25,699 nucleotides of DNA from a virus, in IMG/VR virus record IMGVR_UViG_3300042515_000121, positions 1 through 25,699 of that record; one strand, written 5' to 3'. Position 1 is the first letter of the stretch, and each line of letters starts with the position of its first letter. Below are positions 119 through 4,815 of the stretch, one piece after another. Under the pieces are notes generated by a model, which was given only the letters and a program-made list of their open reading frames with translations, was not told the DNA's origin and searched no databases. The translations under genes were made by a program, and so were the position numbers.

Positions 119-598
119 CTATTCGAAGGTGTTTTCAGACATCACCGGAAACGTCTCAGGCTTTATTTGCCTAAATTGTATAGCCCTTATTTTGTACATG
201 AAACGACTAATCTTTTCTTGTCTAGCCCTGACATAGTCTTTAAGTCTTCCTCCTAATTCTTCTATCTCATCATCAGACCATAGTTTACGTTGTTTTATAA
301 GCTTCGCTTCATAGTAGGACTCTAAGTATTGTAGTCTTTCCATAGCAGTAAACAATTTCCTATCTCCTAATGCTGCGTTGCAATCCATACAGCAGGGCAG
401 TAAAGCACATGGTATACTATGCTTCTTCCTGTAATCATAGTCTAGATTGTCCATAGACGACAAAGGCGGAACATGATCTAATGACGAAGCAGGATCGGCA
501 CAATAAAAACAAAAATATCCTTCATTCAAGAATAGTCTTTTATACTTGTGACCATGTAACTTATTTAGTCTTATCCTTTCCTTTGATTTTGCTGACAT
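119..598 (-). CDS. HNH endonuclease-like protein
   Basis: This 159-residue protein has the elements of a zinc-stabilised HNH (beta-beta-alpha metal) nuclease: CFYC at residues 30-33, the DHVPP core at 41-45 supplying the catalytic histidine H42, and CMDCN at 70-74 with the second cysteine pair and the conserved asparagine. The rest (about 80-159) is charged and helical. I start it at the ATG at 598 rather than the in-frame TTG at 613, because AGGAG lies five bases upstream of the ATG and overlaps the longer version. HNH proteins in phages can be homing or free-standing endonucleases, or packaging partners of terminase. Here the gene lies in the leftward accessory group, away from terminase, so a selfish or host-DNA-directed nuclease is more likely. 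The specificity cannot be read from the sequence. Confidence 0.75.
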   Translation of the reverse strand: MSAKSKERIRLNKLHGHKYKRLFLNEGYFCFYCADPASSLDHVPPLSSMDNLDYDYRKKHSIPCALLPCCMDCNAALGDRKLFTAMERLQYLESYYEAKLIKQRKLWSDDEIEELGGRLKDYVRARQEKISRFMYKIRAIQFRQIKPETFPVMSENTFE

Positions 599-607
599 AG
601 TGGCTCC

Positions 608-630
608 TAGCAACTTGTAAAGTGTTGCTA
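608..630. repeat. 7-bp inverted repeat, possible operator for the HNH gene
   Basis: TAGCAAC at 608-614 and GTTGCTA at 624-630 form perfect 7-bp arms around a 9-base centre. The element overlaps the last base of the proposed -10 box and the predicted start of the HNH transcript. It could be a repressor operator, or a small hairpin at the 5' end of the mRNA. Confidence 0.4.
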
Positions 631-1574: not shown

Positions 1575-2222
1575 TTAACCCTTTGCAAGTTTAAGTCTGA
1601 TAACTTTGGACATTTTTTGACCATGGGCAGCATAACCGATAACTGGGATTGATTTGTCCCAGCACTTCCGACAACCTTTACACTTACCGCCTTGTTGATA
1701 CGCTGGGCATACACTGATGCTATCATCATTGTAGGATTCTGCAATAGTGCTGGACCATGGTGCATCGAGTACCTCGCCTATAACAGAATCCGATGACCTA
1801 CGCACCACAACATTCGGCAATGCATCCATTTGTTCTAAGATCGATTGATACTTAGGAAACTTGTGCATTCTAGTCGGTAACCAATGTTTACACCAAGGTG
1901 TACGTTTCATGACCTCGAGCATTTTCTCTGCAAGCTTGATTGTGTACATGTCGCCAGAGTCAAACCAACGGAAGTATCTATCTGAATCTAAGGCTTGTAC
2001 CATGTCATCAACCCAATCATCACGCTGCCAATCTTCCTTGTTGTGTTCTCTTGGTGCTTTAACATTAGGGTATAAGTAGTTGCCAGTGGTTGCATAACAG
2101 CCCTTGCAGGCATCAACTAATTCCCCAGTGTAAACATTGATACTACCTGAGCAAGTATCTAAAGCTTGTAAGCTCCATGAGCGTATGCCATCAAGCTTGC
2201 TAGTGATTGATAATTTGAGCAT
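1575..2222 (-). CDS. Gp88-like cysteine-rich phage protein
   Basis: The 215-residue protein matches the pattern I know from the phage 'gene product 88' family: SLQALDTCSG near 17-26, then ACKGCYATTGNYLYP at 38-52 and REHN at 58-61. It has a cysteine group C24, C39 and C42, and a second group at the C-terminal end, C172, C181, C184 and C187 (CKGCRKCW). RWFDSGD at 85-91 is another conserved-looking block. Seven spaced cysteines suggest bound metal or an iron-sulphur cluster, and the family is sometimes compared with radical-SAM-type folds. The biochemical role is not established. I start it at the ATG at 2222 because AGGAAA lies seven bases upstream; an upstream ATG at 2285 would add 21 residues that overlap the promoter. 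It is the first gene of the leftward unit. Confidence 0.7.
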   Translation of the reverse strand: MLKLSITSKLDGIRSWSLQALDTCSGSINVYTGELVDACKGCYATTGNYLYPNVKAPREHNKEDWQRDDWVDDMVQALDSDRYFRWFDSGDMYTIKLAEKMLEVMKRTPWCKHWLPTRMHKFPKYQSILEQMDALPNVVVRRSSDSVIGEVLDAPWSSTIAESYNDDSISVCPAYQQGGKCKGCRKCWDKSIPVIGYAAHGQKMSKVIRLKLAKG

Positions 2223-2256
2223 GGTTGTTTCCTGGTTTGTTTGTTGCGATGTGTTA

Positions 2257-2285
2257 ATACTAATCAAGTGTTTTTGCATTGTCAA
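2257..2285 (-). promoter_or_regulatory. Candidate leftward sigma-70 promoter
   Basis: On the minus strand a perfect TTGACA (complement of 2280-2285) is followed after 17 bases by TAGTAT (complement of 2257-2262), four of six bases of the -10 consensus. The transcript would start near 2250, giving a 28-base leader that contains the AGGAAA site of the Gp88-like gene. It is the only good candidate for driving the leftward gene group as a whole. Confidence 0.5.
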
Positions 2286-2382: not shown

Positions 2383-2409
2383 TCTGCACAGTCTGCACAG
2401 TCTGCACAG
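2383..2409 (+). repeat. Three tandem 9-bp repeats (TCTGCACAG)
   Basis: TCTGCACAG occurs three times back to back with no mismatch (2383, 2392 and 2401), beginning one base after the parS-like site. The 9-bp period is near one helical turn. Copies recur at 2486-2503, and the core recurs in inverted orientation at 2827-2862. Confidence 0.8.
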
Positions 2410-2485
2410 TCTTAGACAATGATAAGGTGTATCTATGTGGTCAATAAAGTATCCCTATGTGGTGCTCCATCGATACACTCTTGTG

Positions 2486-2503
2486 CCTGCACAGTCTGCA
2501 CAG
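2486..2503 (+). repeat. Two further copies of the 9-bp repeat
   Basis: CCTGCACAG at 2486-2494 and TCTGCACAG at 2495-2503 continue the family found at 2383-2409. They lie just before the first 39-bp iteron. Confidence 0.75.
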
Positions 2504-2508
2504 ACTCA

Positions 2509-2625
2509 ATTGTCATCCTAACGACAATCTATGATTTCATATAATGTATTGTCGTCGTAGTGACAATCTATGACTTTGTATATTGAATTGTCATCCTAGC
2601 GACAATCTCTATTGTATTCTGTATA
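2509..2625 (+). repeat. Three tandem 39-bp iterons with internal inverted repeat
   Basis: Three units start at 2509, 2548 and 2587, exactly 39 bases apart. Each opens with ATTGTC, then eight bases close to RTCSTARY, then GACAAT, so every unit carries perfect 6-bp inverted arms, followed by CT. The second half of the unit is A/T-rich and less conserved (CTATGA in units one and two). Dyad plus fixed spacing points to cooperative binding by a dimeric DNA-binding protein: a replication initiator, partition protein or repressor. It is not a CRISPR, since the intervening parts are also related and short. Confidence 0.8.
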
Positions 2626-2628: not shown

Positions 2629-2785
2629 TATACGACATAGGGGGAGGGGTCTGTGTTGTAGTGTAAATGTTGTGGTGCTACCTAGCCTTAAAAAAAGCTA
2701 AAATGGAAGTCTCTAAAGACTAAACAGTCTATCTAATAATATCTAATAAAATCAATAGCTTAGTAATAAAGCCTCTGCGGAGCCT

Positions 2786-2850
2786 CTGACACCATGTAAA
2801 TGGAGTCCCGCCATAGCCTCTAAAGACTGTGCAATCTGTGCTGGTGTCAG
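2786..2850. repeat. 9-bp inverted repeat pair flanking 47 bases
   Basis: CTGACACCA at 2786-2794 is exactly complementary to TGGTGTCAG at 2842-2850. The arms could form a long-loop stem or bind two protein dimers that loop DNA just upstream of the rightward promoter. Confidence 0.45.
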
Positions 2851-2880: not shown

Positions 2881-2909
2881 TTGACAAAACTTAAAAAATA
2901 TGCTATAAT
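2881..2909 (+). promoter_or_regulatory. Consensus sigma-70 promoter for the terminase-portal operon
   Basis: TTGACA at 2881-2886, a 17-base spacer, and TATAAT at 2904-2909 with a TGC extended -10 directly before it. All twelve hexamer bases match consensus. The start would be near 2916, leaving a leader of about 160 bases before the small terminase gene. Confidence 0.85.
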
Positions 2910-3076: not shown

Positions 3077-3562
3077 ATGTCAGAAATTAAAATTACTTCT
3101 CCTACTGAGGATTGTTCGCTACCTTCATCGGTCAGCCAGGATGTCTTGGCAGTCAATGAAGAGAAGAAAGTGCCTGCGAAAAAGAAGAGATCTAGAGGTC
3201 GTCCTAAGAAGGAAGAAGTACAGAAGTACATTAAGAGAGAGAAAAGAGGTAGACCACCAGGAGAAGCAGCAAGGATTAAAGAGTTCACTGCTTCGCTGTT
3301 GCTGACACACTCTAATGCGATTATCAGAAAGATAGTACATAAAGCTCTTAATGATGAAGATAAAGATCAAATGGCTGCTTTAAAGCTATGTATTGATAGA
3401 ATGTTACCAGTGTCTTATTTTGAAGACAAAGGTGGTGGTGGAGGGGCTAAAGCAATCACTATAAACATTACTGGTGTTAACGACAAACCAGTTGAGATGA
3501 TTGAACATGATCCTGTAGACGTTGAGACTACACTAATTGATTACGATAAAGAAGAAGAATGA
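3077..3562 (+). CDS. terS: Terminase small subunit
   Basis: This 161-residue protein directly precedes and overlaps the large terminase gene, the usual position for the DNA-recognition subunit of the packaging motor. The N-terminal third is acidic and then strongly basic (EEKKVPAKKKRSRGRPKK). It contains two AT-hook-like cores, RGRPKK at 40-45 and RGRPPG at 57-62, which would bind the minor groove of A/T-rich DNA. Residues about 65-115 form the helical part, with DQMAALKLCIDRMLPVSYFE, a signature I know from phage small terminases (a helix ending in DRMLP). The C-terminus is acidic. AGAGGG lies five bases before the ATG. The likely target is the repeat-rich leader just upstream. Family membership is inferred from context plus motif. 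Confidence 0.8.
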   Translation: MSEIKITSPTEDCSLPSSVSQDVLAVNEEKKVPAKKKRSRGRPKKEEVQKYIKREKRGRPPGEAARIKEFTASLLLTHSNAIIRKIVHKALNDEDKDQMAALKLCIDRMLPVSYFEDKGGGGGAKAITINITGVNDKPVEMIEHDPVDVETTLIDYDKEEE

Positions 3563-4815
3563 GTAATTTGACGGTATCTCTTCTTCCTTGGCAGCAAGAG
3601 GTCTTCAAAGATCCAGCAAGGTTTAAGATCATCGCTGCTGGTAGACGTACAGGTAAATCAAGGTTAGCTGCTTGGACATTGATTATTGAGGCTCTACAGA
3701 CTGAGAAAGGTCATGTCTGGTATGTAGCCCCAACACAGGGACAAGCTAGGGATATTATGTGGTCTACGCTGTTAGAGCTAGGCCATACAGTGATCAAGGG
3801 TAGTCATGTCAATAACATGCAGATTACGTTGATCAACGGTGCAATGATATCGCTAAAGGGTGCTGACAGACCAGAGACTATGCGTGGTGTTAGTTTGAAG
3901 TACTTAGTGATGGATGAGTACGCAGACATGAAGCCACAGGTGTTCGAACAAATCCTTAGACCTGCTTTAGCGGATCAGAAGGGTAGAGCAATGTTCATTG
4001 GAACACCAATGGGTAGGAATCACTTTTATGAATTGTACAAAGTAGGTGATTCAGGTAAAGATAAAGATTACAAGTCTTGGCACTTCACTAGCTTTGATAA
4101 TCCATTGTTAGATCCTTTAGAGATTGAAGCAGCTAGAGGTTCGATGTCTAGCTTTGCTTTTAGACAAGAGTTTATGGCTTCGTTTGAGGCAGCACAGTCG
4201 GAGATCTTCAAAGATGAATGGATTAAGATCAGTGAAGAAGAGCCGGAAGAAGGTAACTACTTTATTGCGGTGGATCTATGTGGTTTCAGTGATTCATCTC
4301 AGACGAATCAAACGAAGAATAAAAAGCTTGATGACACAGCGATAGCTATTGTTAAGATTAATACTAAAGGCTGGTGGGTTGCTGACATTCAACACGGTAG
4401 ATGGGATGTCCGAGAAACAGCAGTGAGGATTCTAAAGGCTGCAAAGGACTACAGAGTTAATGCAGTAGGGATTGAGAAAGGTTCACTGAAGAATGCAGTG
4501 ATGCCTTATATGAATGATTTGATGAGAAGATTAAATTATTATCCTCGCATTGAAGAGCTAACACACGGTAATAAGAAGAAAGCAGATAGGATTGTTTGGT
4601 CATTACAGGGGCGCTTTGAACACGGTAGGATTGTGTTGAATGAAGGTGATTGGAATAATAAGTTTGTAGATCAACTTATGCAGTTCCCTGATCCTAAGAC
4701 ACATGATGACTTAATTGATGCGTTAAGTTACATTGACCAGATTCAAGTAGCGGATTGGAATCAGAATCTGGACCAAGAAGAGTATGAAGTCCTAGACACT
4801 ACGATAGGTTGGTGA
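3559..4815 (+). CDS. terL: Terminase large subunit (packaging ATPase-nuclease)
   Basis: This 418-residue motor powers DNA translocation into the prohead and cuts the concatemer. The ATPase domain shows Walker A AAGRRTGKS at 26-34, Walker B YLVMDE at 115-120 and the coupling motif GTP at 148-150. The RNase H-like nuclease domain shows FIAVDL (D239), a DDT pair at 258-260, GIEKG (E306) and HDDLIDALSY at 382-391 with its metal-binding aspartates. All key residues are present, so the enzyme should be active. At 418 residues it is shorter than T7 gp19. It overlaps terS by four bases (ATGA) and is followed at once by portal, consistent with translation coupling in one operon. Confidence 0.95.
   Translation: MSNLTVSLLPWQQEVFKDPARFKIIAAGRRTGKSRLAAWTLIIEALQTEKGHVWYVAPTQGQARDIMWSTLLELGHTVIKGSHVNNMQITLINGAMISLKGADRPETMRGVSLKYLVMDEYADMKPQVFEQILRPALADQKGRAMFIGTPMGRNHFYELYKVGDSGKDKDYKSWHFTSFDNPLLDPLEIEAARGSMSSFAFRQEFMASFEAAQSEIFKDEWIKISEEEPEEGNYFIAVDLCGFSDSSQTNQTKNKKLDDTAIAIVKINTKGWWVADIQHGRWDVRETAVRILKAAKDYRVNAVGIEKGSLKNAVMPYMNDLMRRLNYYPRIEELTHGNKKKADRIVWSLQGRFEHGRIVLNEGDWNNKFVDQLMQFPDPKTHDDLIDALSYIDQIQVADWNQNLDQEEYEVLDTTIGW

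Follow-up and report, generated by a model that had tools for sequence, protein, structure and literature searches.

Interchangeable arrays resembling host-regulator binding sites in a hypervariable intergenic slot of uncultured tailed phages

The window, by which we mean the whole 25.7-kb stretch of DNA analysed, is a fragment of an uncultured tailed phage. A leftward gene of the GP88 family is followed by a 0.8-kb intergenic region, one of only a few long non-coding tracts, and then by rightward genes for a small basic protein, the terminase large subunit (terL), portal, capsid and tail. The intergenic region and its borders contain the following features.

1575-2225, minus strand: GP88-family gene, the first leftward gene (Pfam PF17338, 1.4e-27)
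2257-2285, minus strand: predicted leftward sigma-70-type promoter, TTGACA-17-TAGTAT
2367-2382, no strand: parS-type site TGTTTCACGTGGAACA, an exact match to the parS centromere
2384-2412, plus strand: 9-bp direct repeats CTGCACAGT left of the cassette; similar repeats recur in relatives
2487-2506, plus strand: second block, of CTGCACAG repeats, seen in the sequence
2509-2625, plus strand: cassette type A, three 39-bp units (2509-2547, 2548-2586 and 2587-2625)
2509-2528, no strand: dyad 1, ATTGTCATCCTAACGACAAT, of the pattern ATTGTC-N8-GACAAT
2548-2567, no strand: dyad 2, ATTGTCGTCGTAGTGACAAT, of the same pattern
2587-2606, no strand: dyad 3, ATTGTCATCCTAGCGACAAT, of the same pattern
2636-2649, plus strand: CATAGGGGGAGGGG, the fixed right border of the slot; a similar G-run occurs in some more distant relatives
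2773-2811, plus strand: conserved anchor CTCTGCGGAGCCTCTGACACCATGTAAATGGAGTCCCGC / CTCTGCGGAGCCTNNGANACCATGTNAATGGAGTCCCGC, between the slot and terL (pattern match, 104 viral stretches)
2881-2909, plus strand: predicted rightward sigma-70-type promoter, TTGACA-17-TATAAT (12/12)
3077-3562, plus strand: basic protein with AT-hook-like motifs, encoded upstream of terL (AT_hook match under the curated cut-off)
3559-4815, plus strand: terL (PHROG 2, 7.1e-45)

Judged by its position, the basic protein is a candidate terminase small subunit, and the conserved anchor may perhaps serve in packaging or transcript processing. An HNH/endonuclease VII-like gene at window positions 119-613 is present in some relatives and absent from others. 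Left of parS, at 2320-2366, lies a GATGAACGGTA...GTTGTTCGAAYACAAC dyad that is conserved in most relatives and is possibly a further binding site. A full-length relative encodes a primase-helicase, a DNA polymerase, an exonuclease, thymidylate synthase and ribonucleotide reductase; no integrase was found among the scanned proteins, and the gene set is of lytic type. The window has no DNA-level match to cultured phages, to which its terL and capsid bear only remote similarity. The type of LexA box and the regulators discussed below suggest a Gamma- or Betaproteobacterial host.

The earlier note on this DNA had described three units exactly 39 bp apart, each with ATTGTC and GACAAT arms separated by eight bases, and the units indeed start at 2509, 2548 and 2587, with spacings of 39 and 39 bp. 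The whole window contains exactly three copies of the pattern ATTGTC-N8-GACAAT, all within the array at 2509-2625, and 200 local shuffles of the window yielded zero triples of 6-8-6 dyads with even spacing and identical arms. The 18 loci with this array supply 53 units, 18 of them distinct. None of the 12 arm positions varies among these units, conservation averages 0.84 in the dyad centre and 0.70 in the filler, and the spacing is 39 bp in 35 of 35 unit intervals, a fixed period like that of iterons. The filler of the third unit, CTCTATTGTATTCTGTATA, is mostly sequence of the slot's conserved 3' flank and not a third filler copy; the conserved element is the 20-bp dyad rather than the 39-bp unit. 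Because the arms are invariant and the period fixed while the filler drifts, the array appears to be of a protein-binding type, which supports the earlier proposal of selection for protein-binding geometry. Compared with shuffles, the array region has a modest folding advantage (z -2.4), which the dyads account for; an RNA element was rejected, since the region has no Rfam match and the dyad arms show no compensatory changes. In viral contigs, the dyad motif is nearly confined to this phage group.

Relatives were gathered via terL and via the conserved anchor right of the slot, giving 95 distinct anchored loci, of which 91 keep the right border and were classed by cassette. The slot has a fixed position, directly left of CATAGGGGGAGGGG and between divergent promoters, and its content is highly variable. 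Cassette A, with 1-5 copies of the dyad, is present in 18 of the classed loci. Type B1 consists of five or six TGTGGATAA boxes, type B2 of TTATCCACA boxes in the opposite orientation, and type D of TGAGAATCATTCTCA boxes, to which a Fur-like set, type C, is related; type N+C has an additional pair, CTACTAGATATAGTGG and ACACTATATGTAGTGG, type E has 10-11 bp direct repeats, and 14 loci make up a remaining 'other' type. Cassette types are scattered across the terL tree. Fifteen pairs with terL more than 99.5% identical (99.5-99.9%) carry different cassettes, at a slot identity of 54-66%, and in 59 pairs a shared cassette is more alike than terL (for example, 98% versus 82-86%), from which it follows that cassettes move between phages. 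This exchange of slot content is also why most relatives lack both dyad and period, the features by which the earlier note would have judged the array, and only the 18 loci of type A keep the two together, so that the check proposed there comes out mixed.

Several further arrays were seen in individual loci. A more distant relative (L047) has five TGTGGATAA boxes in this slot, roughly 1.27-1.41 kb upstream of terL, and a parS site, GTTTCACGTGAAAC, lies in their midst. The intergenic region upstream of terL in L038 contains a repeated perfect palindrome, TTAGTCATGACTAA, with the fixed tail CAGATGC, possibly another regulator array, and the slots of L058 and L061 carry GC-rich arrays of TACGCG/GTGTGCG-type repeats.

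Many cassettes resemble the sites of named bacterial regulators. Types B1 and B2 fit the DnaA box consensus TTATCCACA; 39 exact DnaA boxes are followed by another after 2 bp, this gap being the commonest, and 2 bp is the box spacing preferred by DnaA in E. coli (PMC11317965). The NrdR pair comprises 16-bp boxes with 15 bp between them, a central AT and conserved G-C pairs, features reported for NrdR boxes, among them the 15-bp separation in E. coli (PMC12176259, PMC9110341). When 94 Gammaproteobacteria were searched with the pattern of this pair, five genomes matched, three of them at ribonucleotide reductase genes. In 56 bacterial genomes, the cassette D sequence adjoins genes for FTR1, FeoB, TonB receptors and an Rrf2 regulator, and this proximity of the host copies to iron-uptake genes is what Fur boxes would show. 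The slot of more distant relatives contains TGCACY-N5-GGTGCA in tandem. This pattern occurs at 11 sites in 75 genomes (0 for the reversed control), located at ntrB-like kinases (five), at the glutamine synthetase gene glnA and at a nitrate-type binding protein, a placement that fits NtrC. The Fur, NrdR and NtrC motifs were thus each checked independently at bacterial host genes. Some relatives carry TTGGCAY-N5-TTGCW in the slot, which we take to be a sigma-54 element; likewise, the SOS-type boxes are presumably LexA sites and the E repeats presumably OmpR-like, the latter having no host match in 56 genomes.

To gauge motif enrichment, 175 distinct slot regions were compared with terL coding DNA, left coding DNA and shuffled slot, given below in this order. 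DnaA boxes were found in 133 of the 175 slot regions (0/1/2 in the controls), RpoN sites in 48 (0/3/0), NtrC sites in 34 (0/2/2), parS within 1 mismatch in 56 (0/1/0), SOS-type boxes in 30 (0/0/1), Fur boxes in 90 (18/10/16) and the NrdR pair in 5 (0/0/0), and the window's own dyad was likewise enriched over all three controls. Since the panel was partly post hoc, several motifs having been spotted by eye beforehand, and the loci are kin by descent, these numbers are a measure of strength rather than a formal probability, a reservation that does not extend to the host-gene checks. Some of the RpoN matches come from a single inherited flank to the right of the G-run, and the 8 loci with at least two sites provide the firmer count. 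No enrichment in the 175 slot regions was seen for CRP, FNR, ArgR, TyrR, PurR, MetJ, Rex, Zur, MatP or CpxR, and 43 of them are devoid of any panel motif. Orientation is free (DnaA 56/77, RpoN 22/26). The full relatives that were examined show parS, NrdR, NtrC and RpoN sites and cassette A nowhere but at or next to the slot, and parS and SOS-type boxes recur adjacent to slot cassettes.

The ATTGTC-N8-GACAAT dyad itself gave 16 matches in 84,980 GTDB species genomes, against about 15 expected by estimate, and in 369 Gammaproteobacteria it did not exceed the reversed control; neither scan found a host regulon for it. Since several other cassettes of the slot match host-regulator sites, the protein bound in the window is probably a host-encoded dimeric regulator recognising this dyad. 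A 22-base exact match to dyad 1 and filler, beside a pdif-like site on an A. baumannii plasmid (L179:1545-1566, NZ_CP087327; E 0.4), is probably due to chance.

The earlier note had read the repeats, together with the nearby parS-like site, as a combined origin/partition locus or a multi-operator switch. The parS site is exact, although it lies 126 bases to the left of the first dyad and not 127. A ParB-family gene (PF02195), which a ParABS system of the phage's own would include, was absent from 8 of 8 records checked, and the repeats are replaced wholesale by DnaA, Fur/NrdR or other arrays at 99.5-99.9% terL identity, so a dedicated origin/partition locus is rejected. A more general replication origin, in which host DnaA would unwind an A-rich stretch next to a DnaA-box array and a GC-rich border while other arrays recruit other initiators, is suggested by the many relatives with DnaA boxes immediately left of the G-run and A-rich DNA to its right. 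We nevertheless consider it rather unlikely, because Fur, NrdR, NtrC and sigma-54 are not initiators and yet share the slot, and the full relative has its own primase-helicase and DNA polymerase. Slightly less probable still is a roadblock or insulator, in which a tightly bound array of host proteins by parS would restrict how far host ParB, or some other tracking process, spreads towards the late operon. It would account for interchangeability and orientation independence, and RepA, acting as a roadblock, can attenuate ParB-mediated silencing (PMC7333895); against it, 8 of 12 type B2 loci and 14 of 14 'other' loci have no parS match.

The main rival, to which the origin and the ParB roadblock are inferior, is host control of phage promoters. 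Host regulators bound at the slot would repress or activate the flanking divergent promoters, making early or late genes responsive to iron, nitrogen, dNTP level, DNA damage or replication state. The slot does sit between divergent sigma-70-type promoters, and host PhoB acting on cyanophage promoters offers a precedent (PMC10976474), whose authors caution that boxes predicted in phage genomes are unreliable without binding tests (PMC10976474). Among relatives, a similar promoter is predicted leftward in 43 and rightward in 51, at median distances from the G-run of 304 and 253 bp respectively, but both -35 elements there are more than 200 bp from the slot's right border, neither overlapping nor closely flanking it. 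Moreover, sigma-54 and DnaA sites occur in either orientation and regulators of opposite effect swap for one another, all of which makes such control improbable, if worth serious attention. Tandem dyads between divergent promoters also resemble phage operators, so the 39-bp dyads might instead be sites of a phage-encoded repressor, in the style of an immunity region. Among the genes followed (the leftward region and full relatives, with small ORFs covered in part), none tracks the cassette, as an initiator of iterons would, and none is a repressor matching the operator type; together with the host-like sites in many cassettes and the lytic-type gene set, this leaves the idea very improbable. 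The switch proposed earlier stays a candidate, weakened by the distant promoters and by the lack of a cassette-linked gene among those examined. Finally, the very fast swapping beside a putative packaging region could be that of a neutral recombination hot spot accumulating repeats, which we find barely credible given invariant arms and exact periods amid drifting filler and strong enrichment limited to specific regulators.

Free orientation, distant promoters, interchange of opposite regulators and the failure of any followed phage gene to track the cassette favour binding for its own sake, and decoy action is the most likely reading of the mechanism. The slot, its arrays, their fit to DnaA, Fur, NrdR, NtrC, sigma-54 and ParB sites and their rapid swapping are apparent at the level of sequence; multiple sites for DnaA, Fur, NrdR, NtrC and RpoN in relatives are what a decoy array would look like. 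We propose, with a confidence just short of even, that the window's array is one of the cassettes occupying a hypervariable slot, and that these cassettes bind host regulators and titrate them in the multicopy phage genome. Host DNA-binding regulators would occupy the arrays and, as the genome with its 3-6 sites multiplies to present hundreds of sites, would be drawn from their host targets. Titration of NrdR or Fur may derepress ribonucleotide reductase or iron uptake, that of DnaA may starve chromosome initiation, and other arrays may disturb nitrogen control or segregation, presumably to the benefit of the phage. Regulators in E. coli have been titrated with synthetic decoys supplied in tens to hundreds of copies (PMC7826281). 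It counts against decoy action that a pure decoy would have no need of a place between divergent promoters, although long non-coding tracts are scarce. Nothing matching phage decoys of host regulators was found in the open-licence literature.

The broader proposal, which we put forward a little more tentatively, is that a widespread phage group has a recombining slot whose arrays for host global regulators (DnaA, Fur, NrdR, NtrC, sigma-54, LexA, ParB and others) are protein-free DNA decoys rewiring host physiology. If so, phages manipulate their hosts through non-coding DNA sponges for master regulators, traded as modules, a counterpart to protein-based host takeover, and the binder-orphan cassettes, including that of the window, point to regulators important in infection. 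Under the rival readings too, swapping of host-regulator arrays at more than 99.5% terL identity calls for explanation.

DnaA boxes, a GC cluster and an unwinding element make up a bacterial oriC, and the DnaA-box version of the slot similarly has boxes by a G-run and an A-rich stretch; DnaA boxes are, however, found in some cassettes only, and the likeness is one of sequence. Iteron plasmid origins share tandem exact-period repeats beside parS, whereas the slot has no ParB gene (8 records) and no cassette-linked initiator among the genes followed, and sister phages carry DnaA, Fur, NrdR or NtrC sites in its place. The locus datA is a DnaA reservoir. Like datA and synthetic decoy plasmids in E. 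coli (PMC7826281), the slot offers tandem sites away from promoters on DNA that becomes multicopy; it differs in being natural, phage-borne and swapped between regulators, and titration would here be its presumed effect. PhoB-bound cyanophage promoters (PMC10976474) likewise place host-regulator sites within a phage genome, but in that case the sites are located at the very promoters under their control, whereas the slot arrays lie away from both predicted promoters and differ among near-identical phages.
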